Assembly: GCF_024346355.1 (NCBI RefSeq)
Contig: NZ_JAGQCU010000001.1
Coordinates: forward strand, 62,001-126,000
Origin: Cyanobium sp. ATX 6A2
GTDB lineage: Bacteria; Cyanobacteriota; Cyanobacteriia; PCC-6307; Cyanobiaceae
Length of the DNA stretch: 64,000 nucleotides
Direction: 5' to 3'
Under the pieces are notes generated by a model. It was not told the origin of the DNA. It was given only the letters and a program-made list of their open reading frames with translations, and did no database searches. Shown one piece after another: positions 5,905 through 59,919 of the stretch (position 1 is the stretch's first letter; each line of letters opens with the position of its first letter). A program made the translations under genes and the position numbers.

Positions 5905-5905
<1 letters not shown>
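5300..5905 (-). CDS. histidine phosphatase (phosphoglycerate mutase-like) family protein
   Basis: A 201-residue enzyme with the RHG catalytic motif [17 protein letters not shown] near residue 20 and the second catalytic histidine in [10 protein letters not shown]. It also has [10 protein letters not shown] and a WDYGAYEGR segment typical of cofactor-independent sugar or nucleotide phosphatases in this superfamily. I chose the ATG at 5905 because it overlaps the phosphorylase stop codon as TGATG. A longer frame upstream would run into the phosphorylase gene. The first residues are encoded by a run of ten C bases (5874-5883), a possible slippage site. Substrate is not readable from sequence; its place between glgP and pgi suggests a sugar phosphate or 3-phosphoglycerate. 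Confidence 0.85.
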
Positions 5906-8421
<2,516 letters not shown>

Positions 8422-8579
8422 GGCCGCAAGGGATCGCATTTCCCACACCCTGAGCCCCCAGGGTTAACGGCACATCAACACCGGCAAGGTAGGGACGTAG
8501 TCCACACAACCTCACCGGCCTGAACGCCGGGAAGCGTGGCTGGGGGGCCATAACCTGACTGCGTTGCCCTGCAGGTGTG

Positions 8580-12440: not shown

Positions 12441-14882
12441 TCAGGCCTGCCCCGGCACCGTCACGGGCTGAACGTTCCAGATGCGCTCGGCATAGTCGTG
12501 GATCGAGCGATCACTGGAGAAGAAGCCACAGGCGGCGGTGTTGGCCAGCGACCGGCGCGCCCAGCCCTGCCGATCGAGCCAGGCCTGATCCACCGCCTCC
12601 TGGGCGCGGCGGTAATCACCGAGGTCGGCCATCACCTTGAAGGGATCGGAGCTGGTGAGACTGGCCAGCAGGGGATGGAACAGTTCCCGGTCGCCTTCGC
12701 TGAACTGGCCTGATCCGATCAGGGCAAGCACCTCACGCACCATCGGATCCTGATCAATCCAGGACATCGGGTGGTAGCCGAGTCGATCGAGCTCTGCCAC
12801 CTGCTCGGTGGTGTGGCCGAACAGGAAGAAGTTCTCATCCCCCACCCGTTCGCGGATCTCCACATTGGCGCCATCGAGGGTGCCGATCGTCACCGCGCCG
12901 TTGAGTGCCATCTTCATGTTGCCGGTGCCGGAGGCCTCCTTGCCGGCGGTAGAGATCTGCTCGGAGAGGTCTACCGCCGGATACACCAGCTGACCCAGTT
13001 TCACGCTGAAGTTGGGCAGGAACACCACCCGCAGGCGGCCCTCCATGGCCGGATCCATGTTCACGATCCCGGCGATGCCCACGATCAGACGGATGATCAG
13101 CTTGGCCATGGCATAGCCCGGAGCCGCCTTGCCGCCGAACAGGAAGGTGCGCGGCGGCAGATCCTCGCCGTTGCGCAGGCGCAGATAGCGCTCCACGATC
13201 AGCAGGGCGGCCAGATGCTGGCGCTTGTATTCATGGATTCGCTTCACCTGCACATCGAACAGCGACGTGTGATCCAGCAGCACTCCGAGCTGCTCCTGCA
13301 CGTGTTGGATCAGGCGCCGTTTGCCGCGGTCCTTCACCTCCTGCCAGCGCTTCAGAAAGGCAGGGTCGCCGGCGTGGGCGCTGAGGCCCTGCAGCGCCTC
13401 AAGGTCGTGGCGCCAGCGCTCCCCCAGCACCCCATCGAGCAGCTCGGCCAAGGGGGGGTTGGCCACTGCCATCCAGCGGCGGGGGGTGACGCCGTTGGTG
13501 ACGTTGGTGAAGCGCTCAGGCCAGAGCTCGGCGAAATCAGCCAGCACATGCTCGCGCAGCAGCCGGCTGTGCAGTTCGGCCACACCGTTGGTGTGATGGC
13601 AGCCCACCAAGGCCAGATGGGCCATGCGCACCCGCCGCCCATTCCCTTCCTCGATCAGAGACATGCGACCCAGCTTCTCGGGGTTGCCCGGATAGCGGAT
13701 GCGCACCATGCGCAGGAAGCGGACATTGATCTCGTAGATGATCTCGAGCTGGCGGGGCAGCAGCTGCTCGAACAGCTCCACTCCCCAGGTTTCCAGCGCC
13801 TCGGGCAGCAGCGTGTGGTTGGTGTAGCTGAGGCTGGCGGTGGTGATGGTCCAGGCGGTGTCCCAGTCGAGATGGTGCACATCGAGCAGCAGCCGCATCA
13901 GCTCGGCCACGGCGATCGCCGGATGGGTGTCGTTGAGCTGAACGGCAAACTTGGTGTGGAACTGCTCGGGTTTCAGCCCCTGGCCCTTGAGGATCCGGAA
14001 CATGTCCTGCAGGGAGCAGCTCACGAAGAAGATCTGCTGGGAGAGCCGCAGGCGCTTGCCCTGATCAAACTCGTCGTTGGGATAGAGAACTTTGGAGAGG
14101 GTCTCCGACTGCATCTTGCGCAGCACCGCCCTGGCGTAGTCGCCGGAGTTGAAGGAGGCGAAGTCGAAGGCGTCCGCTGCGGTGGCCGACCACAGCCTCA
14201 GGGTGTTGGCGGTGTTCACCCCGAAGCCCAGGATCGGGGTGTCGTAGGCCACGCCGATCACGGTCTGGCCGCCGATCTGCACCGGGTAGCTCCACTCCGG
14301 ACGGATCACCTCCCAGGGGTTGCCCTGGGCCAGCCAGGGATCGGTGCCCTCCTGCTGGCCTGCCGATGTGATCTGCTGGCGGAAGATGCCGAATTCGTAG
14401 CGGATGCCGTAGCCGATCGCCGGCAGCTCCAGGGTGGCCATCGACTCCTGGAAGCAGGCGGCCAGACGGCCGAGACCGCCATTGCCCAGGCCGGGCTCCG
14501 GTTCCTCAGCCAGCAGCACCTCCAGATCAAGCCCCAGCTCGGCACAGGCGGCGCACGCCTCCGCGCGGATGCCGAGATTCACCAGATTGTTGTCCAGGTG
14601 GGGGCCGAGCAGGAATTCGGCGGAGAGGTACACAGCCGTGCGCACATGGCTCTGGGTGTAGGTCTCGGCCGTGTCCACCCACTTCTGCAGCAGGCGATCC
14701 CGCACCGCCAGGGCCAGGGCCCGGTAGTGATCGTGCCGGGTGGCCAGGGAGGGGGATTTGGCCTGGCTGAAGAAGAGGTGGCGGCGGATCGCCTCGGCCA
14801 GGGGGCTCGAGAGGGCAGATCCGGACAGGGGCACAGGCTGCGCCGCGGCAGCGGGCTGGATGGGGGAGTTCTCCAGGGCCAT
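12441..14882 (-). CDS. glgP: glycogen phosphorylase, copy 2
   Basis: A second GT35 alpha-glucan phosphorylase, 813 residues from the ATG at 14882 (MALENSP). It has LSAEFLLGPHLDNNLVNLG, EEPEPGLGNGGLGRLAAC, QLNDTHPAIAVAELMRLL, FTNVTNGVTPRRWMAVAN, KRIHEYKRQHLAAL and the PLP-lysine signature EASGTGNMKMALNG near residue 650. It differs from copy 1 at many positions (for example GHTTEQVAELDRLGYHP), so this is an old paralogue rather than a recent duplication. The genome region thus encodes two isoenzymes that may differ in chain-length preference or expression timing. It stands alone: the gap of about 260 bases upstream leads to divergent glnN and holds the promoters of both. Confidence 0.95.
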   Translation of the reverse strand: MALENSPIQPAAAAQPVPLSGSALSSPLAEAIRRHLFFSQAKSPSLATRHDHYRALALAVRDRLLQKWVDTAETYTQSHVRTAVYLSAEFLLGPHLDNNLVNLGIRAEACAACAELGLDLEVLLAEEPEPGLGNGGLGRLAACFQESMATLELPAIGYGIRYEFGIFRQQITSAGQQEGTDPWLAQGNPWEVIRPEWSYPVQIGGQTVIGVAYDTPILGFGVNTANTLRLWSATAADAFDFASFNSGDYARAVLRKMQSETLSKVLYPNDEFDQGKRLRLSQQIFFVSCSLQDMFRILKGQGLKPEQFHTKFAVQLNDTHPAIAVAELMRLLLDVHHLDWDTAWTITTASLSYTNHTLLPEALETWGVELFEQLLPRQLEIIYEINVRFLRMVRIRYPGNPEKLGRMSLIEEGNGRRVRMAHLALVGCHHTNGVAELHSRLLREHVLADFAELWPERFTNVTNGVTPRRWMAVANPPLAELLDGVLGERWRHDLEALQGLSAHAGDPAFLKRWQEVKDRGKRRLIQHVQEQLGVLLDHTSLFDVQVKRIHEYKRQHLAALLIVERYLRLRNGEDLPPRTFLFGGKAAPGYAMAKLIIRLIVGIAGIVNMDPAMEGRLRVVFLPNFSVKLGQLVYPAVDLSEQISTAGKEASGTGNMKMALNGAVTIGTLDGANVEIRERVGDENFFLFGHTTEQVAELDRLGYHPMSWIDQDPMVREVLALIGSGQFSEGDRELFHPLLASLTSSDPFKVMADLGDYRRAQEAVDQAWLDRQGWARRSLANTAACGFFSSDRSIHDYAERIWNVQPVTVPGQA

Positions 14883-15140
14883 GGCGTGCGTGGCTGACGG
14901 CGGACAATCCCCCACTTTTGCCCCCACCAGGGGGCAACGCGCTGCCTGAACCACTACCGAAACCCGCACTCAGGACGGTCAGCCCCGCCCGCCAACATGG
15001 CGAAATCAGCACAACCCTGCCAGAGCCAGCGGGCAGCTGCAGCCTCGCCTGGTTCGGCTCCGCAGCAATCCGGTATCAACGGCAGCAACAGGAAGGGGGG
15101 TGCGGGGAGTTTGGTATAGGTTCCGCATCAATCGCTACTC

Positions 15141-18773: not shown

Positions 18774-19064
18774 TCACCAGCTCTTGCGAACGCCGCCGCC
18801 ACCACCGCCGCCGCCACCGCCGCCACGGGGCTCGGCCTTGTTGACACGGATCATGCGACCCATCCACTCCACATCCTGGAGGTCGTCGATGGCTTTCTGT
18901 TCGTCGGATTCCTCGGCGAACTCCACAAAGGCGAAACCACGCTTGCGGCCGGTGTCGCGATCAAGGGGCAGGCTGCACTTGCGCACCGAACCGTATTCAC
19001 CGAACAGGTGCTGAAGGTCCTCCACCTCGGCGTCGAAGGAGAGGTTGCCCACGTAAATGGTCAT
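18774..19064 (-). CDS. RRM-domain RNA-binding protein with Gly tail, copy 1
   Basis: A 96-residue cyanobacterial Rbp-type protein. One RRM covers residues 1-80 with RNP2 (IYVGNL, residues 3-8) and RNP1 (RGFAFVEF, ~44-51), and DEQKAIDDLQDVEWMGR near the end of the domain. A pure Gly run (~11 residues) and VRKSW tail follow. Such proteins bind single-stranded RNA, are commonly cold-induced, and in cyanobacteria have been linked to mRNA positioning. A paralogue with a much longer Gly-rich tail is at 59554-59919. The ATG at 19064 is fixed by homology to that paralogue (both begin MTIYVGNLSF). The leader upstream is long and gene-free. Confidence 0.93.
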   Translation of the reverse strand: MTIYVGNLSFDAEVEDLQHLFGEYGSVRKCSLPLDRDTGRKRGFAFVEFAEESDEQKAIDDLQDVEWMGRMIRVNKAEPRGGGGGGGGGGGVRKSW

Positions 19065-19450
19065 GAAATGAACTGGAATGAGATTGGGTATTGATTCGTC
19101 GAACGCCCTGGAGAAAGTCGCTGGCCTGGAGGAGAAACCGATCTGTGGGCCGATGGGGCCCGTGAGATGACCCGGAGAGGCTCGCAACGCGAGCGGCTGG
19201 ACCGGGTCGGGGAAAGCGCCGCTGGAAAGAAACCTGCTGAAGAGTGATCCTGAATCGTTCTCACCCTACAGGCCGACGGGGCAGCGCGCTGCAGCCGTGT
19301 CACACCAGCTGCTTTTTTTGAGCTTTGCTGCACAAGGTTGCGGACTGTGGCAGAAGCAGAGCCGTAATTGTGCAAATTGTGCCGAATCCGCAGCCCATCG
19401 ATCCACAGGCAGTCGAGGTCCCTAAGACAGGTCGGAAGCGAACTGACGCG
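19065..19450. other. divergent intergenic region between the RRM gene and the AraC-like gene
   Basis: About 390 bases with no convincing gene. It should hold the RRM-gene promoter and leader (minus) and the AraC-like promoter (plus). It contains a 12-base perfect palindrome GCAGCGCGCTGC (19281-19292) and a T7 run at 19313-19319, not arranged as a normal terminator. An in-frame extension of the AraC-like gene could begin as early as 19325. Confidence 0.5.
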
Positions 19451-21377: not shown

Positions 21378-21989
21378 TTGGCGATTTCCGGTTCCACCAC
21401 AGGCCCGCCCCTGGTGCTGGTGCACGGGCTGCTCGACACCCCCGCCGTCTTCAACGCGCTCAAGCGGGAACTGGGAAACCGCCGGCAGCCCCTGTTGATC
21501 CCGGCCCTGCCCCTGCGCCTGGGGGCCACTCCGGTGCTGGAGGCGGCCGCCCTGCTCGGCAGCCACATCGAAGCCGCCTTCGGCATCGAGCAGCCCGTGG
21601 ATCTGCTGGGGTTCTCCATGGGCGGGGTGATCGCCAGGGCCTGGATTCAGTTGCGCGGTGGCCAGCGGCGCACCCGCCGCTTCATCAGCGTGGGCAGCCC
21701 CCAGCAGGGCACCCTCACCGCCCAACCCTGGCCGAGCCGGCTGCTGGCCGGCATCGCCGACCTGAAATGGGGCAGCCCACTGCTGCAGCAGCTGAACGCC
21801 AATTGCGACAGCCTCTGCCGGATCGAATGCCACAGCTTCTATTCCGGCCTCGATCTGGTGGTGCTCCCCGGCTGGCGGGCCGTGCTGCCGGTGGGAGCCC
21901 GCACGATGCTGCCGGTGCTCACCCACCCCCAGCTGCTGCGCGATCCGGCCGCCATCGGGCCGCTGGCCAGAGAGCTGCTGCGGCCATAG
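21378..21989 (+). CDS. alpha/beta hydrolase (lipase/esterase type)
   Basis: About 203 residues of an alpha/beta-hydrolase. The oxyanion segment PLVLVHGLLDTPAVF opens the fold, the nucleophile elbow is GFSMGGV (~85), followed by RRFISVGSPQQGT, a pattern seen in triacylglycerol lipase-like proteins. The catalytic histidine is probably in the VLTHPQLLRD segment near the end. The start is uncertain: I used the TTG at 21378 just before LAISGS, because no ATG is well placed and the open frame runs back to 21165 through unlikely sequence. It is 35 bases upstream of the glycosyltransferase gene and in the same direction, so the three genes 21378-23651 may form one operon acting on lipids or esters. 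Confidence 0.75.
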   Translation: MAISGSTTGPPLVLVHGLLDTPAVFNALKRELGNRRQPLLIPALPLRLGATPVLEAAALLGSHIEAAFGIEQPVDLLGFSMGGVIARAWIQLRGGQRRTRRFISVGSPQQGTLTAQPWPSRLLAGIADLKWGSPLLQQLNANCDSLCRIECHSFYSGLDLVVLPGWRAVLPVGARTMLPVLTHPQLLRDPAAIGPLARELLRP

Positions 21990-22023
21990 CTTTGAAGGGT
22001 TGCATCCCCATCATCAGCCGTGC

Positions 22024-23118
22024 ATGGAGTTGATCACCGTCTCCCTGCTGGTGCGCTGGCTGCTGGGCTGGCTGCTGGCGGCACGGATGCCGGTGCTGCC
22101 GCTGGCCACCCCCAGCGGAACACCCCGGTTTTCGGTGCTCATCCCGGCCCGCAATGAGGCCGACACCCTGCCCCATCTGCTCACGAACCTGGCGCAACAG
22201 ACCTTGCAGCCCCTGGAGGTGATCGTGATCGACGACCACTCCAGCGACGCCACCGCCACCATCGCCCGCCGCGGGGCGCCGGGACTGCCGGTGCGGGTGA
22301 TCCAGCCGCCGCCGCTGCCGGCCGGCTGGTGCGGCAAGACCTGGGCCCTGCACCACGGCGTGGAGGCCAGCCGCGGCGAGCTGCTGATGTTTCTCGATGC
22401 CGACACCGAACCTGCCGCGGACTTTCTGCAACGGCTGGTGGTGGCCTGGCAGTGCCTGGGCGGCCTGGTGTCGGTGCAGCCCTACCACCGCACGGAACAG
22501 CCCTACGAGCAGCTCTCGGTGCTGTTCAACCTGGTGGGCCTGCTGGCCGTGCCGCTGGGGCCGGGCTGCGGCGTGGCCTTCGGTCCGGCCATGGTCACCA
22601 GCCGGGCCGACTACCTGCGCAGTGGCGGCCATGCAGCGGTGGCCAACAAGGTGGTGGAGGACTGGTTCCTGGGCCATTGCTACGAGGCGGCGGCCCTGCC
22701 GGTGAGCGCCTTCATCGGTCACGGCGTGATCGCCTACCGCATGTATCCAGGCGGCCTGGAGGATCTGGTGGCGGGCTTCAACAAGAACTTCGCCGCCGCC
22801 GCCGGCGAGGTGCGCTGGCCCTGGATGCTGGCTGTGCTGCTGTGGCTCTCGGGACTGTTCTGGGCGGCCTGGTGTCTGCCGGCCTCCCTGCTGGGATGGC
22901 CGCTGATGGGGGATCTCCGTCCCCTGTTCAACGCGCTGATCTACGCGGCGTTCGCCCTGCAGCTGCTGGTGATCACCCATCGGGTGGGCCGCTTCCGCTG
23001 GATCAATCTGGTCTTTCCAGTGCCCGTGCTGTTTTTCCTGGCGGTGTTCGTGCAGGCGATCCTCAACCTCAAGCGCGGCCAGGTGCGCTGGAAGGGCCGC
23101 ACCTTCAGCACCCGCTGA
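22024..23118 (+). CDS. GT2-family glycosyltransferase, CrtQ/CruG-like
   Basis: A 364-residue membrane-associated family 2 glycosyltransferase. An N-terminal helix precedes the GT-A domain: FSVLIPARNEADTLP, VIVIDDHSSDAT (nucleotide-binding aspartate), PAGWCGKTWALHHGV, and the DxD motif in FLDADTEP (~124-131), then VVEDWFLGHCYE (catalytic base region). Two or three C-terminal hydrophobic helices follow. The PAGWCGKTWAL element is characteristic of the branch containing CrtQ (glycosylation of diaponeurosporenoate) and HpnB-like enzymes. The stop overlaps the start of the next gene (TGATG), whose product resembles CrtO acyltransferase, so a carotenoid or isoprenoid-glycoside acceptor is a reasonable but unproven inference. 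Confidence 0.82.
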   Translation: MELITVSLLVRWLLGWLLAARMPVLPLATPSGTPRFSVLIPARNEADTLPHLLTNLAQQTLQPLEVIVIDDHSSDATATIARRGAPGLPVRVIQPPPLPAGWCGKTWALHHGVEASRGELLMFLDADTEPAADFLQRLVVAWQCLGGLVSVQPYHRTEQPYEQLSVLFNLVGLLAVPLGPGCGVAFGPAMVTSRADYLRSGGHAAVANKVVEDWFLGHCYEAAALPVSAFIGHGVIAYRMYPGGLEDLVAGFNKNFAAAAGEVRWPWMLAVLLWLSGLFWAAWCLPASLLGWPLMGDLRPLFNALIYAAFALQLLVITHRVGRFRWINLVFPVPVLFFLAVFVQAILNLKRGQVRWKGRTFSTR

Positions 23119-23651
23119 TGGCCCTTTCCGGCTGGTTCGGGAGCGGGCTGCCGAGTGGGCTGCCCGCGGTGCTGGGCTGCGCCGGGCTCTGGCTGCTCTG
23201 GTCGTTGCTGGTGGGCTCCATCGCCAACCACCTGCCCGAAAGGCTGCTGGAGCCGCGGCGGGATGGGGACGCCGCCCTCGCGTCCGGCACGTCACCCACC
23301 CGCACGACGCAGCAGGCGCTGCGTCGCATGAACAGGCGCCTGGCGATCCGGCGCTGGAAGCCCTGGATCCCCGACGCCGGCAACGTCCTACCCGGCGGGG
23401 TGAGCAAGGCCAGCCTGGTGCGGCGGAGCCCTGTGGCCCTGCGGCGGCTGCAGCTGGAGACCCGGCGGGCCGAACTGGTGCACTGGGCCCTGTGGCCCGC
23501 CTGGCTGCTCACGGCCCTGTGGCTGCCGCCCGCAGGCGTGCTGCTCAATCTGGCCTTCGCCACCCTGTTCAACCTGCCCTGTCTGTTGCTGCAGCGCTAC
23601 AACCGCCTGCGGCTGCAGCTGGTGCTGCAGCGGATGCCCACCAGCGGCTGA
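23118..23651 (+). CDS. CrtO-like (glycosyl-4,4'-diaponeurosporenoate acyltransferase family) membrane protein
   Basis: A 177-residue protein with membrane helices near the N-terminus (~15-38) and in the C-terminal half (~130-165). Three segments resemble the CrtO acyltransferase family of the staphyloxanthin pathway: RRLAIRRWKPWIPDAGNVLP, TRRAELVHWALWP and FNLPCLLLQRYNRLRL. In that family the enzyme acylates the sugar of a carotenoid glycoside. Here the TGATG overlap with a CrtQ-like glycosyltransferase repeats the functional pairing known from Staphylococcus. This organism lacks evidence in the window for C30 carotenoids, so the real acceptor may be another lipid-linked sugar. Confidence 0.75.
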   Translation: MALSGWFGSGLPSGLPAVLGCAGLWLLWSLLVGSIANHLPERLLEPRRDGDAALASGTSPTRTTQQALRRMNRRLAIRRWKPWIPDAGNVLPGGVSKASLVRRSPVALRRLQLETRRAELVHWALWPAWLLTALWLPPAGVLLNLAFATLFNLPCLLLQRYNRLRLQLVLQRMPTSG

Positions 23652-23664
23652 TCTCAGGCCCTGC

Positions 23665-25881
23665 TCAGGCCCCCAGCCAGCGCTCCTGCAGCGTCAGCGT
23701 CAGCACCAGGCCCGGATCCTCCACGTGGCGGGCCAGCACCAGGCGATGCTCACCGGGTTCGAGCGCGAAGCCGTCGCGGGCCTCATCAAAGAAAGCCAGA
23801 CGGCGCAGCGGGATCGTCAACTGCAGACGGCGGTGTTCCCCGGCGTCCAGCTCCAGCCGCGCAAACGCCACCAGGGTGCGCGGCGGACGCGGAACCCGCT
23901 GGCCAGGAGGCTCCAGGTACACCTGCACCACCTCGGCGGCCGCCATGGGTCCCCGGTTGTGCAGCGTCAGCGACAGCTCCACACCCGTGCCCCCGTGGGG
24001 GTCTCCGGGCAGCGGCTCGGGCGGGGCGAGGCTGGGATCGCTGAGCTCGAAACGGCTGTAGGAGAGCCCGAAGCCAAAGGGATAGGCGGCTCGCTGAGCG
24101 GCGCGGCCCAGGCGGCGGTACCCATGCCAGAGGTCGTAGCTGACCTCCAGGGCCCGGGGTTCGAAGGGCGGCAGCTGGGCGGTGCTGCTGGGCAAGCTGA
24201 AGGGAAGGCGCCCCGAGGGCGACACCCGGCCCAGCAGCACGTCGGCCAGGGCGTGACCGCCCTGCTCCCCCGGATACCAGAGCAGCAGGATGGCGGGCAC
24301 CGCCTGGCGCCACTCCTCCATGAGCACGGCCCCGCCGCCCATCAGCACCACCACCGTGCTCGGGTTGGCGGCCACCACCGCCCGGATCAGGGCCACCTGG
24401 GAGGGGGGCAGGCGCAGGTCGGTGCGGTCGCCGGAGGCGAAGTCGCCGCCCTGGCGGGGCGTGGCGTGGCCGGTGAGCCAGGCGATCAGCTCAGCCGCCG
24501 GCTGCCACAGCCGGCGCAACCGGCGGCGCCCCAGCCGGCGCTGGAGCCACGGGGGCTGCAGCACCCCTGGAGGGGGAATCTGGCGCAGGATCGAGGCGAT
24601 GTCGCCGGGATGGATGTGCTCCCCCTCCAGGCGCCAGTCGAGCCCCACCACCACCACCGCCGCCTCACAGCCGGCGGCCACAGAGGCAGCCGCTACCGGG
24701 TCATCGCTGTCCCCATGGCTGATCGCCAGCTGGGGTGCGGCGGCCCGCAGACCCTCGAGGGGGGTCACCACCGCCCCCGGCGGCGGGCGGGTGTCGGAGG
24801 AGCCCCGGTCGCCCAGGTTGGGTTGCGCCGCCAGCCGGCCCACCACCGCCAGGGAGTTCAGGCCGCTGAAGGGCAGCACCGGGCCCTCGTTGCGCAGCAG
24901 CACGATCGAGCTGGTGGCCGCTTCCCGCGCCAGGCGCCGGTGGGCGCTGCAGCGGCGCAGGGCGGGCGGGTAGGTGCCCGCAGGCAGGGCCAGCTGCGCC
25001 CGCAGCAACCGCAGCGCGGCATCGTTGACGCGGGCCAGGGGCAGCCGGCCATCGGCCAGCGCCTCTTCGAGCACGCCCTCGAACACCATCCGGAAGGGCA
25101 TCTCCAGGTCCTGGCCCGCCAGCTGGGCGGCCACCCCATCGCGCACACCGAAGATGAAATCGGTGACCACGAAGCCCTCAAAGCCCCAGCGGCCCTTGAG
25201 GATCCCCTCCAGCAACTGGGGGTGTTCGCCGCACCAGATGCCGTTGACCCGGTTGTAGGCACTCATCACCGAGGCGGCGCCGGCCTCCACGCAGTCGCGG
25301 AACTGGGGCAAATAGAGCTCATGCAGCACCCGCGGGCTGGCGCACACATCCACCAGAAAGCGGGAGCTGTCGATCGAGTTGAGGGCGAAGTGCTTGACAC
25401 AGGCGAGCGTGTGGCGCTGCAGGCCACGGGTGATCGCCGCGCCCAGCACCCCCACATGCACGGGATCCTCCCCGTAGGTCTCCTGCGCACGGCCCCAGCC
25501 TGGATGACGCAGCAGGTTCACGCACACCGCCGCCACCCAGTTGGCCCCGAAGGAGCGGGCCTCCAGGGCGATGGCTTCCCCGATGCGCTCCTCCAACTGA
25601 GGATCCCAGCAGGCTCCCCGGGCAATCGGCACCGGGAAGGTGGTGGCACCTCCCTCCAGGCACACCCCGCGGGGACCATCCACGAACTGCAGACCACTCA
25701 GCCCCAGCCGGGGAACCTGGGCGGCCGGCCAGGGATGGCGGTGGGAGGCGTCGCGGGTGGCGATGTCGAACAGGCCCGCCCAGAAGGGAGTGTCGCCATC
25801 GAGCAGGGCGAGCTTCTCGGCCGTGCTCAGCTGTGCCAGCAGGGCCGCAGCCCGGCATTGGATCGATTCGGTATCACTCAA
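23665..25881 (-). CDS. glycoside hydrolase family 3 protein (beta-glucosidase-like)
   Basis: A 738-residue GH3 enzyme hydrolysing terminal beta-linked sugars. The N-terminal barrel has GLQFVDGPRGVCLEGG, NLLRHPGWGRAQETYGEDP, VKHFALNSID (substrate-binding KH), SAYNRVNGIWCGE and the nucleophile region GFVVTDFIFGVRDG (Asp ~residue 237). A GH3 C-terminal alpha/beta domain follows (LLRNEGPVLPF, VVLMGGGAVLMEEW, LLWYPGEQGGHALADVL), then a fibronectin-III-like end (ALTLHNRGPMAAAEVVQVYL). No signal peptide is visible, so it probably acts inside the cell. The start is a TTG at 25881; no ATG is nearby in this frame. It shares a strand with phoX upstream (69-base gap). Confidence 0.9.
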   Translation of the reverse strand: MSDTESIQCRAAALLAQLSTAEKLALLDGDTPFWAGLFDIATRDASHRHPWPAAQVPRLGLSGLQFVDGPRGVCLEGGATTFPVPIARGACWDPQLEERIGEAIALEARSFGANWVAAVCVNLLRHPGWGRAQETYGEDPVHVGVLGAAITRGLQRHTLACVKHFALNSIDSSRFLVDVCASPRVLHELYLPQFRDCVEAGAASVMSAYNRVNGIWCGEHPQLLEGILKGRWGFEGFVVTDFIFGVRDGVAAQLAGQDLEMPFRMVFEGVLEEALADGRLPLARVNDAALRLLRAQLALPAGTYPPALRRCSAHRRLAREAATSSIVLLRNEGPVLPFSGLNSLAVVGRLAAQPNLGDRGSSDTRPPPGAVVTPLEGLRAAAPQLAISHGDSDDPVAAASVAAGCEAAVVVVGLDWRLEGEHIHPGDIASILRQIPPPGVLQPPWLQRRLGRRRLRRLWQPAAELIAWLTGHATPRQGGDFASGDRTDLRLPPSQVALIRAVVAANPSTVVVLMGGGAVLMEEWRQAVPAILLLWYPGEQGGHALADVLLGRVSPSGRLPFSLPSSTAQLPPFEPRALEVSYDLWHGYRRLGRAAQRAAYPFGFGLSYSRFELSDPSLAPPEPLPGDPHGGTGVELSLTLHNRGPMAAAEVVQVYLEPPGQRVPRPPRTLVAFARLELDAGEHRRLQLTIPLRRLAFFDEARDGFALEPGEHRLVLARHVEDPGLVLTLTLQERWLGA

Positions 25882-39111: not shown

Positions 39112-39681
39112 TCAGAACAGGCCGAACAGGCCTCCCTTGAGACGAATCTGCACCGGGCTGTCATCGCTGTCGATTCTCACGTGCGAGTCCACATCGATCG
39201 GTTTGGGCGTGGCCACCTCCACTGAGCCCAGCACCGGCAGGGGCTGGTCGGCGCGTACATCCACCCTCCCCTGCACCGGCAGGGGCGCGGCCGCCATCAC
39301 ATCCACCGCGCCCCGTACCGGCAGGGGCGCGGTGGCCTTCACCTCCACGGGGCTGGACACCACCACCCGCGGCTCACCGCTGATCGGGACTGGATTCGGG
39401 GTCTCAATCGCCACGGTGCCGCGCACGGTGACCATCTCATCGAGATCAATTCCGATCTTCGAGTCGAGCTGATCCACCTTGATCGGCTTGGCCAGTTCCT
39501 CCACCTGGGCCTTCACGGCCAGGGGCTGATCCAGGGGCATGGCAAGCCGGATCGGGATCGGACGGCTGACCACCTGGAGGAGGACGCCGCCGAGTATGGC
39601 CGTCGACGCCACCACGGCAGTGGGCCAGCGCACGGCCAGGAGAACCTTGAACCAGGTGGCGTCTTCGATGGCAGCAGACAT
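39112..39681 (-). CDS. membrane-anchored protein with 14-residue beta repeats
   Basis: A 189-residue protein. A single transmembrane helix lies at ~22-38 (AVVASTAILGGVLLQVV), leaving a long extracytoplasmic or lumenal part. From ~100 onward a 14-residue unit is repeated: PLPVRGAVDVMAAA, PLPVQGRVDVRADQ, PLPVLGSVEVATPK, PIDVDSHVRIDSDD, with weaker units before (PVPISGEPRVVVSS). In DNA the word ACCGGCAGGGGC recurs exactly every 42 bases at 39233, 39275 and 39317. The repeats suggest a beta-solenoid or stacked-strand stalk. No family is recognised. It diverges from crtH. Confidence 0.75.
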   Translation of the reverse strand: MSAAIEDATWFKVLLAVRWPTAVVASTAILGGVLLQVVSRPIPIRLAMPLDQPLAVKAQVEELAKPIKVDQLDSKIGIDLDEMVTVRGTVAIETPNPVPISGEPRVVVSSPVEVKATAPLPVRGAVDVMAAAPLPVQGRVDVRADQPLPVLGSVEVATPKPIDVDSHVRIDSDDSPVQIRLKGGLFGLF

Positions 39682-39805
39682 GGGATCAGCGGGTTACGAG
39701 AACCCCCGGGTGAGGCCCTTCATGGCCTCCGGTTGGGGGCACTCATTCAACCTGCAGCGCTCGCTGGCTGCTGAGAGGCTCCGATCCCTAGGGTCGCTCC
39801 ACAGC

Positions 39806-41446
39806 ATGTCCTCCACACCGGTGCCCCCAGTCCCAACGGCCACCAGCGTCAGCGTGAGCCCGAGCTCCGCCGGGGAACCCGGGACTGGACAGAGCTGGGA
39901 TGTGGTGGTGATCGGCAGCGGCATCGGCGGACTGGTGACCGCCAGCCAGCTGGCCGCCAAGGGCGCCACGGTGCTGGTGCTGGAGCGCTACCTGATCCCG
40001 GGTGGCAGCGGCGGCAGCTTCCGGCGCGAGGGCTACACCTTTGATGTGGGCGCCTCGATGATCTTCGGCTTCGGAGAGACGGGCCACACCAACCTGCTCA
40101 CCCGCGCCCTGGCCGACGTGGGCCAGCACTGCGACACGGTGCCCGATCCGGCCCAGCTCGCCTACCACCTGCCCGGAGGGCTGAGCGTGGCCGTGGATCG
40201 GGATTACGAGCGCTTCATCGCCGATCTCACCGCCCTGTTCCCCCACGAGGCCAGAGGGATCCGCGCCTTCTACGACACCTGCTGGCAGGTGTTCCGCTGC
40301 CTCGATGCGATGCCGCTGCTGTCGCTCGAAGATCCGGCTTACCTGGCCAAGGTGTTTTTCAGAGCGCCCCTGGCCTGCCTGGGCCTGGCGCGCTGGCTGC
40401 CGGTGAACGTGGGCGACGTGGCACGCCGGCACATCCGCGATGAACAGCTGCTGAAGTTCATCGACATGGAGTGCTTCTGCTGGTCGGTGATGCCGGCCGA
40501 TCTCACCCCGATGATCAACGCCGGCATGGTGTTCTCCGACCGCCACGCCGGCGGCATCAACTACCCCAAAGGCGGTGTGGGGGTGATCGCCGAGAAGCTG
40601 GTGGCCGGCCTGGAGGCCCACAGCGGCGCCATCCGCTACGGAGCCCGGGTGGTGGAGGTGCTGTTCGAGGGCGAAGGGGGCGACGCCCGGGCGGTGGGAG
40701 TGAAGCTGGCCGGTGGCGAGACGATCCATGCCCGCCGGGTGGTGAGCAACGCCACCCGCTGGGACACCTTCGCCGGCTCTTCCGGCAGTGCCGATGCCGT
40801 GACCCGGCCGCTCGTGGACGCCAGCCACACCCCCAAGGCCGAAACCACCTGGCGGCGCCGCTACCGGCCCTCGCCCTCGTTCCTCTCCCTGCACCTGGGC
40901 ATCGACGCCGCCGTGGTGCCGGAGGGCTTCCACTGCCACCACCTGCTGCTGGAGCACTGGCATGAGATGGAGGCTGAGCAGGGGGTGGTGTTCGTGTCGA
41001 TGCCCACCCTGCTGGATCCCTCCCTGGCGCCAGCCGGCCAGCACATCCTGCACACCTTCACGCCCAGCGCGATGGAGCACTGGCAAGGGCTCAGCCCCAG
41101 CGCCTACGCCGCCAAGAAGGACGCCGATGCCGAGCGCCTGGTGGCGCGGCTGGAGGCGATCCTGCCGGGGCTGAAGGGCGCCATCCGCCACCGGGAGGTG
41201 GGCACGCCACGCAGTCACCGCCGCTTTCTCGGCCGCGCGGGCGGCAGCTACGGGCCGATCCCGGCGCTGCGCCTGCCCGGCCTGCTGCCCATGCCCTTCA
41301 ACCGCACCGGGGTGAACGGCCTCTACTGCGTGGGTGATTCCTGCTTCCCCGGCCAGGGACTCAATGCCGTTGCTTTCAGCGGTTTCGCCTGCGCCCACCG
41401 CATCGGCGCCGACCTGGGCCTCAACCCCTGGTCGCTGCCCGACTGA
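39806..41446 (+). CDS. crtH: carotenoid (prolycopene) isomerase
   Basis: A 546-residue FAD-dependent cis-to-trans carotene isomerase (CRTISO/CrtH), acting on the lycopene branch before beta-carotene synthesis. The Rossmann motif VVVIGSGIGGLVTASQLAAKG (~33-53) is followed by ERYLIPGGSGGSFRREGYTFDVGAS, CFCWSVMPADLTPMINAG, INYPKGGVGVIAEKL and the C-terminal GLYCVGDSCFPGQGLNAVAFSG. All are characteristic of the isomerase rather than CrtI desaturase. I chose ATG 39806; the frame opens earlier but that part is opposite the repeat-protein gene. It is followed after 21 bases by a small conserved gene. Confidence 0.93.
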   Translation: MSSTPVPPVPTATSVSVSPSSAGEPGTGQSWDVVVIGSGIGGLVTASQLAAKGATVLVLERYLIPGGSGGSFRREGYTFDVGASMIFGFGETGHTNLLTRALADVGQHCDTVPDPAQLAYHLPGGLSVAVDRDYERFIADLTALFPHEARGIRAFYDTCWQVFRCLDAMPLLSLEDPAYLAKVFFRAPLACLGLARWLPVNVGDVARRHIRDEQLLKFIDMECFCWSVMPADLTPMINAGMVFSDRHAGGINYPKGGVGVIAEKLVAGLEAHSGAIRYGARVVEVLFEGEGGDARAVGVKLAGGETIHARRVVSNATRWDTFAGSSGSADAVTRPLVDASHTPKAETTWRRRYRPSPSFLSLHLGIDAAVVPEGFHCHHLLLEHWHEMEAEQGVVFVSMPTLLDPSLAPAGQHILHTFTPSAMEHWQGLSPSAYAAKKDADAERLVARLEAILPGLKGAIRHREVGTPRSHRRFLGRAGGSYGPIPALRLPGLLPMPFNRTGVNGLYCVGDSCFPGQGLNAVAFSGFACAHRIGADLGLNPWSLPD

Positions 41447-47930: not shown

Positions 47931-50900
47931 TTGCTCACCGTCTTCCGCAGCAACCGGATCGAATGGCTGGCCGACCTCCTGGCCGCCCAGCTGCGCGTGC
48001 GGCCACCGGGCCCGTTTGAGCGGGTGGAGGTGGTGGTGAACACCTGGCCCACCAGCCGCTGGCTGGGGGAGCAGCTGGCCCTGGGGCTGGGCGATCCCGA
48101 CACCCCCTTCGCCGATGGGGTGGCCGCCCATCTGCGCTTCCCCTTCCCCGGCCAGCACCTGCGGGAGCTGGTGGATCGGCTCCTGGCCGACGACCCCGCC
48201 GCCGCCGTTTCGGGCGGTGGGGATCCCTGGCGCGCCAGTGAGCTAGTGTGGCCGCTGCTGGAATTGCTGCCGGCCCTGATCGCCCGGCCGGAGGCCGCGC
48301 CGCTGCGCCGCTGGCTGGAGCGACGGGCAGCGCCCCAGGGGGCTGCAGCCGGCCAGACCAACGGCGAACCGGAACTGGATCGGGCCCTCTGGCAGCTGGG
48401 CCGGGGGATCGCCGATGCCGTTGACGATTACACCCTCTACCGCCCGGCGATGCTGACGGCCTGGCTGGCCGGCCAGGCGCTCGATGGTGGCGGTCAGCCC
48501 CTGCCGGCGGAGCAGCACTGGCAGCCGTTGCTGCTGCGGCAGCTGGCCGATCGCCTGGAGCGGCAGCCCTTCGGGCTGCGGGTGCAGGCCGCCATCACCC
48601 GTTTGCGTCGAGCCGCCGCCGGGGGCATGCCGCTGGCCTGTGCCCTGCCCGATCCTCTGCGTCTGTTCGGCCTGAGCAGCATGGCGCCGCTGCAGGTGGA
48701 GCTGCTCCAGGCCCTCTCCGGCCTGGTGGAGGTGGAGATCTACCTGCTCACCCCTTGCCGGGAGCTCTGGCGCCGCCGCGACCAGGCCACCGGTGCGCCC
48801 CTGGGGGAGGCATGGCTGCTGGAGGTGCCGCGGCTGGAGGCACGCTTCGGTCGGCTGGGGGCCGAGTTCCAGCAGCTGCTGGAGGGTACCGGCGTGGCCC
48901 AGCTCGGCCAGTGGCAGGAGCGCGATCTGTTCCTGGGCGCCGCCACGGCCGCCGAGGGCAGCGGCCGCAACCCCAGCCTGCTGGAGCAGCTGCAGGAGCA
49001 GCTGGTGGATCCGGCCCAGCGCCCCGGGCTGGAGCTGCGGCCTGGCGATCAGTCGTTGGAGTTCCTGGCCTGCCCGGGGCGCTTGCGCGAGGTGCAGATC
49101 GTGCGCGACCGGGTGCTGCAGCTGTTGGCCGACGACCCCAGCCTCGCTCCCCGCGACGTGCTGGTGATGACGCCCCAGGTGGATGCCTTCGCGCCCCTGG
49201 TGGCGGCCGTGTTCGCCGATGGTGGTGCCACCGGCGTGGCCCTGCCCTGGCGGCTCACCGACCGCAGCCAGCAGAGCGATCCCGGCATCGCCCAGGCCCT
49301 GCTGGCCCTGCTGGAGCTGGGCGGCGAGCGGCTCACCGCCTCCGCCCTGGAGGGGCTGCTGGCCTGCGGCCCACTGCTGATCCGCCATGGCATCGACCCC
49401 GACGAAGCGGGCGCGATCACGGCCCTGCTGCAGCGGGCGGGCTTCCGCTGGGGCCTCGACGCCGGCGCCCGCGAAGGCGACCGCAACCACAGCCTGAGCT
49501 GGGCGATCGACCGGCTGCTGCTGGGGCTCGTGCTGCCGGAGCAGCCCGGCCTGGCACCGGGTGCCACCGCCCCCCTGGCGATGGGATCCAGCCTGGAGCA
49601 GCAGACACGCTGGCTGGGGCTGCTGCAGGGGCTGCGGCATGCCCTCAGGCAACTGGCCCAGCCGCGCACCCCGGCCGCCTGGGGGCCAGTGCTGCGGCAG
49701 CTGCTGAGCGACCTGTTCGCAGGCGGCGGCGAGCGGGCCTGGGAGCTGCCGCCGATCCACACCGCCGTGGCCGACTGGCTCGCGGTGGCCGGCAGCAGCT
49801 CCCTGACGGTTCCGGCAGCGGTGCTGGCGGAGGTGCTGGGCGAACGGCTGGCCGCTGACAGCGGCCGCTTCGGGCACCGCTCCGGCGCCCTCACGATCAG
49901 CGGCCTGGAGCCGATGCGGGCCATCCCCCACCGGGTGATCGTGCTGATGGGGCTCGACGGCGGCGCCTTCCCGCGACAACGCGAGCGCCCCGGGTTCCAC
50001 CTGCTGGAGCACCAGCGCCAGCTGGGGGATCCCAGCCCCGCCGATCAGGACCGCTACGTGCTGCTGGAGAGCCTGCTCTCCGCCCGCCAGCACCTGCTGA
50101 TCACCTGGAGCAGCCGCGACAGCCGCAACGGTGAGCAGCTGATGCCCTGCACGCCCGTGCGCCAATGGCTGACGCTGCTGGAGCAGGAGCTGGGCCAGCC
50201 GGCCATGGCCCGGCTCCTGCGCGAGCCGGCCGCCAATCCGCTGGAGCGGCGCAACTTCCTGCCGGAGGGAGAATGGCCGCCGATCTGCAGCGACCGGCGC
50301 CTGCTGCAGGCCCGCCAGCTACTGGAGCGGAGCCGGCCCGTGCCGCCCACCCCCCTGGCGGCCACATCAGCCCCGCTCAGCGGCACACCCGAGACCGGCC
50401 ATGGCGACCTGCTGGCCTGGCTGCAGGCCCCCCAGCAGCGCTGGCTGGAGAGCCTGGGCCTGCGACCGAAGGAATGGGACCAGCAGGTGCTGGACCTCGA
50501 GCCCCTGAGCCTGACGGAGCGGGAGCGGGCCCGGCTGCTGCGGGCGTCGATGATCCCCCAGGAGCAGATCCCAGCCGGCAGCAGCCCCGACTGGCAGGCG
50601 GAGCAGCGGGGCCGCGGCACCCTGCCGGCGGGAGCTGCCGGGGTGATCGAAGCGCAGCAGCTGAGCCAGCGCTGGGACTCCCTGCAGGCGGTGCTGACCG
50701 AGCTGGGCGAGCAGCGCCAGGCCGAGGCCGCTGCGGCCGGACTGGTGGCGGGGCTCAGCTGGCGGGGGGAGCACCTGGTGCTGGCCCACACCGCCAGGGC
50801 GCAGCCGGCCCAGTGGCTGGAGCTGTGGCTGGCCCTGCTGCTGGCCTGCGCGGCGGGGCAACAGCCCGGCAGCGCCGTGCTGGTGGGCCGCGACAACCAC

Positions 50901-51263
50901 CGGTTCCGGAAGCTCGGCTGCCTCGCCCCGCTGCCGGCCAGCGCAGCCCTGGCCCAGCTGGAACAGCTGCGGGAGCTGCGGGAGCAGCACCGCGCCAGCT
51001 GCTGGCCGGTGCCGCCGCGCACGGGCTGGGCCTGGGCGGAGGCGGAGCTGGGCAGAGCCGGCAGCGGCCTGAAGGCCGCCCGCGGCGCCTGGGAGGGGGG
51101 CTTCGCCGGAGCGGGCGAGCGGGAGCAGGAGGTGATGGCCCTCTGTTTCGGCGCCGCGCTCACGGCCATCGCGCTGGTGGAGGAGCGCTTCTGCTGCGCG
51201 GCCCTGGCGCTGCTGCAGCCGCTGCTGGAGCGCCGCAGCGTGGAGAATGGCCGGGGCCGATGA
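47931..51263 (+). CDS. recC: exodeoxyribonuclease V subunit RecC
   Basis: A 1110-residue RecC subunit of the RecBCD double-strand-break repair nuclease. N-terminal features are LTVFRSNRIEWLADLLAAQL and NTWPTSRWLGEQLALGLG, DPAAAVSGGGDPWRASELVW, and LEFLACPGRLREVQIVRDRVL; the middle has LPWRLTDRSQQSDP and PHRVIVLMGLDGGAFPRQRERPGFHLLEHQRQLGDPS. These match the inactivated helicase-like subunit that scans for Chi. The C-terminal ~350 residues are Arg/Gln/Ala-rich. It starts with TTG at 47931 and overlaps recB by 4 bases (ATGA). Confidence 0.95.
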   Translation: MLTVFRSNRIEWLADLLAAQLRVRPPGPFERVEVVVNTWPTSRWLGEQLALGLGDPDTPFADGVAAHLRFPFPGQHLRELVDRLLADDPAAAVSGGGDPWRASELVWPLLELLPALIARPEAAPLRRWLERRAAPQGAAAGQTNGEPELDRALWQLGRGIADAVDDYTLYRPAMLTAWLAGQALDGGGQPLPAEQHWQPLLLRQLADRLERQPFGLRVQAAITRLRRAAAGGMPLACALPDPLRLFGLSSMAPLQVELLQALSGLVEVEIYLLTPCRELWRRRDQATGAPLGEAWLLEVPRLEARFGRLGAEFQQLLEGTGVAQLGQWQERDLFLGAATAAEGSGRNPSLLEQLQEQLVDPAQRPGLELRPGDQSLEFLACPGRLREVQIVRDRVLQLLADDPSLAPRDVLVMTPQVDAFAPLVAAVFADGGATGVALPWRLTDRSQQSDPGIAQALLALLELGGERLTASALEGLLACGPLLIRHGIDPDEAGAITALLQRAGFRWGLDAGAREGDRNHSLSWAIDRLLLGLVLPEQPGLAPGATAPLAMGSSLEQQTRWLGLLQGLRHALRQLAQPRTPAAWGPVLRQLLSDLFAGGGERAWELPPIHTAVADWLAVAGSSSLTVPAAVLAEVLGERLAADSGRFGHRSGALTISGLEPMRAIPHRVIVLMGLDGGAFPRQRERPGFHLLEHQRQLGDPSPADQDRYVLLESLLSARQHLLITWSSRDSRNGEQLMPCTPVRQWLTLLEQELGQPAMARLLREPAANPLERRNFLPEGEWPPICSDRRLLQARQLLERSRPVPPTPLAATSAPLSGTPETGHGDLLAWLQAPQQRWLESLGLRPKEWDQQVLDLEPLSLTERERARLLRASMIPQEQIPAGSSPDWQAEQRGRGTLPAGAAGVIEAQQLSQRWDSLQAVLTELGEQRQAEAAAAGLVAGLSWRGEHLVLAHTARAQPAQWLELWLALLLACAAGQQPGSAVLVGRDNHRFRKLGCLAPLPASAALAQLEQLRELREQHRASCWPVPPRTGWAWAEAELGRAGSGLKAARGAWEGGFAGAGEREQEVMALCFGAALTAIALVEERFCCAALALLQPLLERRSVENGRGR

Positions 51264-54200
51264 GCCCACCGGTGCTTGATTTCGAGGCCAACAGCTTCCC
51301 CCTCGAGCCGGGGGTGCAGCTGCTGGAGGCCAGCGCCGGCACCGGCAAGACCTTCGCCCTGGCCCATCTGGTGCTGCGGCTGGTGACCCGCCCGCTCGAC
51401 CCCCTGCCCCTGGAGCGGCTGCTGGTGGTGACCTTCACCGAGGCCGCCGCGGCCGAACTGCGCGACCGCATCGCCCTGCGGCTGCAGGCGGCCCTGGCCA
51501 CGCTGGAAACCGACGCCGTGGCAACGGATGCCGTGCTGGCCGCCTGGCGCGCAGCCCAGCCGGACGCGCCGGTGGCCCTGGAGCGGCTGCGGGGGCTGCT
51601 GCTGCTGGCCCTGGAGGCCCTCGATCGCACCGACATCACCACCATCCACGGCTTCTGCCGCCGCACCCTGCAGCGCCAGGCCCTGGAGGCCGGCCTGGGT
51701 CCGGCCCTGGAGCTGGAACACGACGAGGGCGAACGGGCTGCCCAGGTGATTCACGACTACTGGCAGCAGCACCTGCTCAGCCTGCCGCCGGATCTGCTGG
51801 CGGGCCTGCAGCAGCAGGGTCTGTCGCCGGAGCGGCTGCAGCGGCTGCTGGAGCGGCTCGATGGCGATCCGGCCCTGGAGCTCGATCCCCTGCCGGCCGA
51901 GATCCAGGCCAGCGAGCCCCTGGCGGCGCAGCTGCCGGGGCTGTGGCGGAAGCGCTGGCAGGCCTTCGCCGCCCTCTGGGCCGAGCGGGGTGAGGCCTTG
52001 GAGCGGGCCTTCTGCGCGGCCGCCACCGACCTGCGCTCCCGCGGCGCCAGCGACACCAAGCCCTACGCCCCCAGGCCCACAAGCAACCGGGTGGCGAAGC
52101 TGGACGCCTGGATCAGCGCCGTCAGCCAGGACGGTGCCATTCCCAGCTACGCCGCAGTGCTGGAGCAGGCGCTGTTGCGCGACTACTTCCACCCCGGCCC
52201 CTTCACCAAGTTGGCTGCCGGCTTTGACGGCGAGTCCATGCCGGGGTCGGAGGTGACCCTGCCGGAGCGGCCGCTGCTGGAGGCGATCGCCGCCCTGGTG
52301 GACGGCCCGCTGGAACTGGTGGTGAGCCATGCCCTGCACCACGGCCGCCGGGAACTGGCCCAGCGCCGCGCCAGCAGGGGACGGCTGGGCTTCGGCGATC
52401 TGTTGGCGGCGCTCGATCCCGGCCCCGACGGCGATCGCCACCAGTCCCTGCTGGCAGCGGTGGCCAGCCGCTACCGGGTGGCCCTGATCGATGAATTTCA
52501 GGACACCGATCCGATCCAGTGGCGGATCCTGCAACGGGCCTTCGTGGCCGCCGCGGGGGAACCGGCCCGCCATCTGCTGGTGATGGTGGGAGACCCCAAG
52601 CAGGCCATCTATCGCTTTCGCGGCGGTGAACTGGCCACCTACCGCCTGGCACGCAAGCGGGCCGATGGCATCCACGGCCTGCGCGAGAACCGCCGCTCCG
52701 CCGCCGCCCTGGTGCAGGCCCTCAATGGGCTGATGACAGCGGGGCTGGTGCGCTCCCAGCTGGATGTGCCGCCGGTGCAGGCGCGGGCGGAGAAGGGCGA
52801 GCTGCTGCTGGAGCCCGGCGAGTCGCCGCTGCAGCTGCTGCCCCTGGACGACGACGACCGCCAGCCCCAGCAAGTGGCCGGCCTCTGCCTGCAGCTGCTC
52901 AGGCGGCGGCTGCGCCTGAGCGCGCCCCGGCCCGATGGCAGCCGGCAGGAGCGGCTGCTCAGCCCCGGGGATCTCTGCGTGCTGGTGGGCACCCACCGCC
53001 AGGCCGAGCTGCTGCGCCACGCCCTCGAGCAACGGGGGTTGCCCAGCAGGCTGGTGAGCCGCGGTGATGTGTTCGCCAGCGAGGCGGCCACCGCCCTGCA
53101 ACGGCTGCTCGATGCCCTCGCCGATCCGGGCCACCCGGGCCGCCTGCGGCTGCTGGCGGCCTCGCCGCTGCTGGGCTGGAGCGCCGAGCAGCTCGGCTCG
53201 ACACCGGAGGCGGCCTGGGAGCAGCTGGCCGACCAGCTGGCCCAGCTGGCCCAGCGGCTGGAGCGCGATGGCCTGCTGGCCTGTCTGGGGGAGCTGCTCA
53301 GCACCGAGGGGCTGGCGCGGTTGTCGCTGGGGGGGCGGCTGCTGGCCGACCTGCAGCAGGCCGCCGAACTGCTGCAGGAGCGCATGCACCAGCTGGGGCT
53401 GGGGGCCGCGGCCGCGGCCGACTGGCTGCGCCGCATCCGCCTCGATCCCGATCGGCGCGTGCCCGAGGAACACCAGCTCCACAGCACCGCCGCCGATGCC
53501 GCCATCGCCGTGGTCACCGTGCACCGCAGCAAGGGTCTGGAGTATCCGGTGGTGATCTGCCCGTTTCTGTGGCGGGCCCCCGCGGCCCCCACCAGCAACG
53601 CCAGCGAACTGGGGCGGCGCTGGCTGCCGCCCGGGGCCACGGCCCCCCACCTCGACCTGCACCGCTCCCCCCACTGGGGCAGAGGCCGCCGCGCCGCCCG
53701 CGCCGACCTGGCCGCCGCCGAGCAGGAAGCGGAGCGCCTGGCCTACGTGGCCGCCACCCGGGCCCGTCACCTGCTGGTGCTGGGCTGGCGGGAGCAGGCC
53801 CGCCATGGCGCCAATCCCCTCGCTCCCTGGCTGCTGGCGGAGGATGGCCTGCGGGGCGAGCCGGAGCTGCCGCTGCACAGGCTCGAGCCGGCCGGCCTGC
53901 CCGGCGCCGGCGAACGCTGGCTGCCGCCGGCGCCGGAGGGAGAGCTGCAGGCCGGCCCCCTTCCCCGTCACCGCCTCGACAACAGCTGGGGCCGCAGCAG
54001 CTACTCGAGCTGGGCCCATGGCGGCAGCAGCCTGGCGCCGGCAGCCCGGGAGGAGGGGCGCGACACCAGCGATGGTTCCGCTGATGGCCCAGCGACTGAC
54101 CCGGCCGCGTGGGAACGCCGGGGACCGTTGGCCGATTTCCCCCGCGGCGCCGGCCCCGGTGAGGCCCTGCACAGGATTCTTGAGCAGCTCGACTACAGCC

Positions 54201-59206: not shown

Positions 59207-59390
59207 CACAGGGTTGGCGGGTGGCGGTGACCGGGCTGGGTGGCGCGGGAGCAGTGAGATCAGCATTCGCTGACAGAGGAAGCGTAGCCGGGTTCCACCG
59301 CTTTCGTCCCGAACTGTCGTCCTGGGCACTTCATGGATCGCCACAAACCGCCCCATCCCGACGTAGGATTTGGGGCGATTCCATGGCGTT

Positions 59391-59494
59391 CAGGCTCCCT
59401 GAGGCACGCCCAGGTTCATCTGCCCATCAGGTCCAACTGGCGATCAGGTTTCCTGATCCTCAGTCCATCTGTTTCACAGGTCCATCTGGTCATC
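59391..59494 (+). repeat. 16-17 bp tandem repeat array upstream of the second RRM gene
   Basis: Five units begin at 59411, 59428, 59445, 59461 and 59477, each starting CAGGT or CAGT: CAGGTTCATCTG, CAGGTCCAACTG, CAGGTTTCCTG, CAGTCCATCTG, CAGGTCCATCTG. A weaker unit is at 59391 (CAGGCTCCCTG). The period of 16-17 bases is not a multiple of three. The rest of the 59207-59553 interval shows no gene. The array ends about 60 bases before the RRM start, in the expected promoter or leader. Confidence 0.75.
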
Positions 59495-59553
59495 CCTCAG
59501 AACCCCGGCATCAGAAGAATCCCCAACGACCAGTTCCAGGTTCTGCTTCATTA

Positions 59554-59919
<366 letters not shown>

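Follow-up and report, generated by a model that had tools for sequence, protein, structure and literature searches.

A predicted carotenoid-tailoring glycosyltransferase and CrtO-family protein pair with an upstream lipase-like hydrolase in the picocyanobacterium Cyanobium

In Cyanobium sp. ATX 6A2, the genes for a GT2 glycosyltransferase and a CrtO-family membrane protein overlap and lie directly downstream of a gene for a lipase-like hydrolase. From the evidence presented below, we lean towards the view that the first two proteins form a carotenoid-tailoring pair acting on a C40 xanthophyll, to which the hydrolase was added in the Cyanobium clade. The membrane GT2 enzyme would use a nucleotide sugar to glycosylate a C40 xanthophyll (zeaxanthin, beta-cryptoxanthin or a compound related to them) at a hydroxyl of the ring; a fatty acid would then be esterified to the carotenoid-bound sugar by the membrane protein of the CrtO family. 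The resulting acyl-glycosyl xanthophyll would span the membrane and resemble thermozeaxanthin, which is a zeaxanthin-type C40 acyl glucoside. Upstream of the pair, the Cyanobium clade would have gained a duplicate of a lipase-like hydrolase, which would most likely serve acyl supply from a membrane lipid or the trimming of esters. The acceptor, the sugar, the acyl donor, the order of the steps and the role of the hydrolase are what we infer in this scheme.

The window, i.e. the whole stretch of 64,000 nucleotides that was analysed, represents bases 62001-126000 of contig 1 of a 3.0 Mb picocyanobacterial genome and holds the following features:

21378..21989, + strand: alpha/beta-hydrolase with a small lipase (Bacillus LipA-like) fold, 203 aa, start TTG (Pfam, alignment, AlphaFold2)
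22024..23118, + strand: GT2 glycosyltransferase, 364 aa, several predicted membrane segments (Pfam, 19-sequence alignment, hydropathy)
23116..23120, + strand: TGATG stop-start overlap of the glycosyltransferase and CrtO-family genes (sequence)
23118..23651, + strand: putative CrtO-family (PF18927) membrane acyltransferase, 177 aa (Pfam, alignments, AlphaFold2)
23665..25881, - strand: GH3 beta-glucosidase-type enzyme, convergent neighbour (Pfam GH3, locus tally)
39539..41446, + strand: CrtISO/CrtH carotenoid isomerase of the C40 pathway, outside the operon (TIGR02730, 891.7 bits, cut-off 586.9)

The row of hydrolase, glycosyltransferase and CrtO-family genes with TGATG coupling, as put forward in the original prediction, is borne out by the sequence and by Pfam. 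The stop codon TGA (23116-23118) and the start codon ATG (23118-23120) share one base, the gap between the hydrolase and glycosyltransferase genes measures 34 bases, and the TTG start of the hydrolase at 21378, proposed there as well, yields a protein of 203 aa that fits the 198-204 aa of its relatives. A promoter and terminator scan of the locus gave no signal clearly above chance. Elsewhere in the window, two differing alpha-glucan phosphorylase-like genes (5905-8448 and 12441-14969, - strand) lie 4 kb apart and are separated by an LDH/MDH-like gene on the + strand, and RecC/RecB/RecD-like genes follow one another at 47931-56634 (+ strand), all as judged by eye. The window also carries a pair of glycine-rich RRM RNA-binding protein genes with closely similar sequences (18774-19187 and 59221-59919).

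The CrtO profile search that had been proposed as a check places the product of the third gene well above the cut-off of PF18927 (84.6 versus 27.3 bits, profile positions 14-123 of 123), a profile that found nothing in 14 control genomes. K81, K97, E114, R117, E119 and H122 are invariant across 65 aligned homologues, and the nearest named relative, from a Cyanobium MAG, shows 81% identity. The AlphaFold2 model is helical and confident (pLDDT 85.9); there was no meaningful PDB sequence match and no Foldseek match under E 0.001. With VIA-align, Z values of up to 7.7 were reached with unrelated helical bundles only, and no conclusion on the fold was drawn from them. The E and H residues that share one helix would be natural candidates for catalysis. 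The presumed acyltransferase activity rests on work in Staphylococcus, and its mechanism would have the support of neither a solved structure nor a fold match.

The glycosyltransferase matches Glycos_transf_2 with 83.7 bits, has several membrane segments predicted by hydropathy and is 91% identical to its nearest named relative, likewise from a Cyanobium MAG; its D125-A-D127 (DAD) and E212-D213 (ED) motifs are invariant in an alignment of 19 sequences. Among the named NCBIfam models, HpnB (TIGR03469; 97.8 bits, cut-off 379) and CruG (NF045692, 2'-O-glycosyltransferase; 69.7 bits, cut-off 600) come closest, and the Pfam and NCBIfam results contain no CrtQ-specific model. The earlier designation of this protein as CrtQ-like is the one detail that needs correction, as the nearest named models are HpnB and CruG, both below their cut-offs.

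Both genes occur together with striking regularity. In a sample of 99 related genomes, PF18927 was found by profile search in 20, namely in 13/13 of the genus, in 7 of the 48 others of the family and in 0/38 from other families. An orthologue of the glycosyltransferase (at least 66% identity, in most cases over 70%) is present in the same 20 genomes, in two of them in pieces only (contig end or broken frame), and in none of the remaining 79, where the best match reached 37%, the 99 genomes being related and hence not independent for co-occurrence. The glycosyltransferase gene lies at most 400 bases upstream of CrtO in 51 of the 59 testable named picocyanobacterial loci, and most of 66 pairs overlap by 1, 4 or 31 bases, as counted with script-chosen start codons. 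The two genes are also neighbours across phyla, mostly with an overlap: this holds for Cyanobacteria, Actinobacteria, Verrucomicrobia and Paenibacillus. The exact coincidence in 20 of the 99 genomes and this adjacency argue that the pairing is not due to chance. The gene trees of the two proteins are largely congruent, and all cyanobacterial sequences form a single clade in both (support 100 and 99), from which we conclude that both genes travelled together.

Among 386 cyanobacteria, PF18927 exceeded its cut-off in four more genomes, all from other families, and in each of them the glycosyltransferase gene adjoins (57-64% identity). One of these pairs resides on the plasmid NZ_CP016476 of Picosynechococcus PCC 7003, the only hit of a plasmid search with the CrtO-family protein. 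Among the carriers with named loci are Cyanobium, Vulcanococcus, Aphanothece, Hydrococcus and many Synechococcus that we take to be of the freshwater or brackish type. TnpB-like genes, recognized by eye from translations, adjoin the pair on the plasmid of Picosynechococcus PCC 7003 and in one further cyanobacterium (L072:7026-8264, L073:5911-7738), at L073 together with a serine-recombinase-like gene, an arrangement suggestive of horizontal transfer of the pair. In one genome (G056) the locus is split (L078:7832-8753, L079:7636-9344): a partial hydrolase, CrtO and GH3 occupy one site, and a full hydrolase and the glycosyltransferase occupy another, where their neighbours are the same desaturase and RRM genes as on the flanks of the window's locus. 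One contig assigned to a Bifidobacterium breve MAG (L142) carries a cyanobacterial pair with 72% glycosyltransferase identity, probably due to a binning error.

What substrate the pair acts on was judged from gene neighbourhoods in other organisms rather than from chemistry, and the assignment to carotenoids is to be read as a prediction on that basis. A CrtI-family desaturase gene (cut-off 238 bits) is located directly upstream of the pair in Paenibacillus (392 bits), Spartobacteria (347 bits) and Candidatus Aegiribacteria (327 bits), and since this neighbour recurs in three non-cyanobacterial loci, we read the pair as a carotenoid glycosylation-acylation module. A CruF-like PF04240 gene is found near one actinobacterial pair, and in the C30 carotenoid cluster of Paenibacillus aurantius, CrtO adjoins a GT2 gene among crtM, crtN and crtNb (PMC10673419). 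Given that the enzyme families are shared, one could also imagine that the lipid glycosylated and acylated by the pair is not a carotenoid but, for example, a diacylglycerol, a long-chain alcohol or an isoprenoid alcohol. The GT2 enzyme is indeed generic and weakly similar to HpnB, CruG and polysaccharide enzymes, no carotenoid gene adjoins the pair in the cyanobacterial loci examined, and several actinobacterial copies are without visible carotenoid neighbours. Nevertheless, the occurrence beside CrtI-family genes in three separate non-cyanobacterial phyla, the presence in a published C30 carotenoid cluster (PMC10673419) and the naming of PF18927 for a carotenoid step make this alternative unlikely in our opinion, albeit by no means negligible.

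If the substrate is a carotenoid, its backbone can be narrowed down by the phytoene/squalene synthase family PF00494, for which the genome contains a single gene of the phytoene-synthase type; nearly all other CrtO-bearing relatives also have one each, of the same type. A single gene of this family implies that there is no CrtM and hence no C30 diapophytoene, squalene or hopanoid route. A true C30 pathway resembling that of staphyloxanthin, which the CrtQ and CrtO family names and the membership of the Paenibacillus relatives in C30 clusters would suggest, was rejected on this count and appears highly improbable. The same count speaks against a hopanoid-glycoside route: among NCBIfam names, HpnB suits the glycosyltransferase best, but the score stays far under the cut-off and a squalene-forming PF00494 paralogue is missing from the genome, so that this reading was rejected too and seems hardly conceivable. 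Of what was originally postulated, a coupled CrtQ/CrtO-type pair in a picocyanobacterium with a hydrolase upstream is supported, and its making acylated carotenoid glycosides is plausible; the direct repetition of staphyloxanthin (C30) synthesis is not supported, given the single PF00494 gene. With a second synthase for C30 missing, a C40 acceptor is the likely reading that is left.

The genome further encodes a CrtL lycopene cyclase (603.5 bits, cut-off 500), a CrtR beta-carotene hydroxylase (510.9 bits, cut-off 475) and a CrtW-like ketolase (201.5 bits, under the cut-off of 350). Together with CrtISO, these enzymes predict carotenoids of the beta-carotene, zeaxanthin and echinenone types, with the predicted hydroxyl acceptors located only on beta rings. 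The acceptor is thus likely a beta-ring-hydroxylated C40 xanthophyll, e.g. zeaxanthin, which would give a thermozeaxanthin-like acyl glycoside. Myxol was rejected as acceptor for the family of Cyanobium, since none of the 61 members of this family that were searched has CruF (PF04240), whereas most other cyanobacteria possess it, including each of the three pair-bearing cyanobacteria from other families that were tested. Published profiles of Cyanobium agree with this prediction: they show zeaxanthin and beta-carotene, a little echinenone and several carotenoids without identification, and myxoxanthophyll is absent (PMC9785593, PMC7551005); for Cyanobium LEGE 07175, again without myxoxanthophyll, the unidentified carotenoids have spectra of known carotenoids (PMC9785593). 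These peaks are compatible with glycosides and equally with caloxanthin, nostoxanthin or isomers. Myxoxanthophyll was reported for Synechococcus strains from Lake Constance in an older spectral-fitting study (PMC3097228).

The hydrolase scores above the cut-offs of both Palm_thioest (32.5 bits) and Abhydrolase_1 (28.7 bits) and contains a complete Ser-Asp-His set, with Ser80 (in GFSMGG), Asp159 and His183 invariant in 26 homologues. The best PDB matches of its AlphaFold2 model (pLDDT 87.5) in Foldseek are the Streptomyces lipase 5h6b (E 1.3e-9) and a B. subtilis lipase, and a GxSxG nucleophile, conserved Asp and His and the lipase fold of alpha/beta-hydrolases are all present. A second paralogue with 57% identity is encoded elsewhere in the genome, homologues occur in most picocyanobacteria, and the copies linked to the pair cluster together with few exceptions. 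The linked hydrolase gene duplicates a core gene of picocyanobacteria, and its tie to the pair is confined to this clade. A synteny survey for the triplet had been proposed as a check, and upon running it the triplet proved conserved, with the linked paralogue upstream of the pair in 42 of the 56 named loci. At loci where the glycosyltransferase is missing from the site, the hydrolase is still found directly 5' of CrtO in 7/8 cases, which suggests that it is tied to the acylation step. Outside the family of Cyanobium it was not found next to the pair, and the hydrolase would therefore be accessory at most. It could also be an unrelated neighbour, a passenger of the operon with some general function as a lipase, an explanation that is compatible with the one preferred for the pair and that has, by our estimate, a chance somewhat short of even: its kinship with a hydrolase common to most picocyanobacteria and its absence next to the pair in cyanobacteria and phyla other than these are in favour, while the upstream position in most named loci and the presence beside CrtO where the glycosyltransferase is missing are not. 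The GH3 gene is kept beside the locus in 38 of the 58 named picocyanobacterial loci; any role of the enzyme in the system would be putative, and it is possibly no more than a stable neighbour.

Taken to its full extent, our proposal would be that freshwater and brackish picocyanobacteria produce an acylated glycoside of a zeaxanthin-type (bicyclic) xanthophyll, a pigment class unreported for cyanobacteria, by a dedicated hydrolase-glycosyltransferase-acyltransferase operon in which the hydrolase serves acyl supply or turnover. We offer this only tentatively and consider it slightly more likely to be wrong than right. In the open-licence papers searched, no report of an acylated carotenoid glycoside in picocyanobacteria or other cyanobacteria was found. 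Picocyanobacteria are major primary producers, and their main protective carotenoid is zeaxanthin. If the proposal is true, a rigid, membrane-anchored zeaxanthin acyl glycoside would account for part of the carotenoid peaks left unassigned in Cyanobium and would be a marker dividing the freshwater and brackish lineages from those without the genes, and the pair could be used to make acylated zeaxanthin glycosides.

The attachment of a sugar and a fatty acid to a carotenoid is chemistry known in other bacteria. With CrtQ-CrtO of staphyloxanthin synthesis and the C30 clusters of Paenibacillus, the Cyanobium locus shares a GT2 enzyme and a PF18927 protein encoded by adjacent genes, with the sugar, as predicted here, added before the fatty acid; it differs from CrtQ-CrtO in the lack of C30 backbone genes, the predicted C40 acceptor, the location outside a carotenoid cluster and the attached hydrolase. 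The CruF-CruG pathway to myxol glycosides also employs a carotenoid glycosyltransferase of the GT2 family in cyanobacteria but has no acylation step, and Cyanobium lacks CruF and stays far below the CruG cut-off (69.7 versus 600 bits). In green sulfur bacteria and in Rhodothermus/Salinibacter, CruC-CruD glycosylate and then acylate a C40 carotenoid, giving chlorobactene glucoside laurate and salinixanthin (PMC5822342). The gene content of Cyanobium fits a C40 acceptor as in this type of module; the comparison is one of function, and the acceptor of CruC-CruD, a hydroxylated monocyclic carotenoid, is unlike the one predicted here. The predicted product would come closest to the C40 acyl glucosides of another phylum, namely the thermozeaxanthins of Thermus and the carotenoid glycoside esters of Meiothermus.
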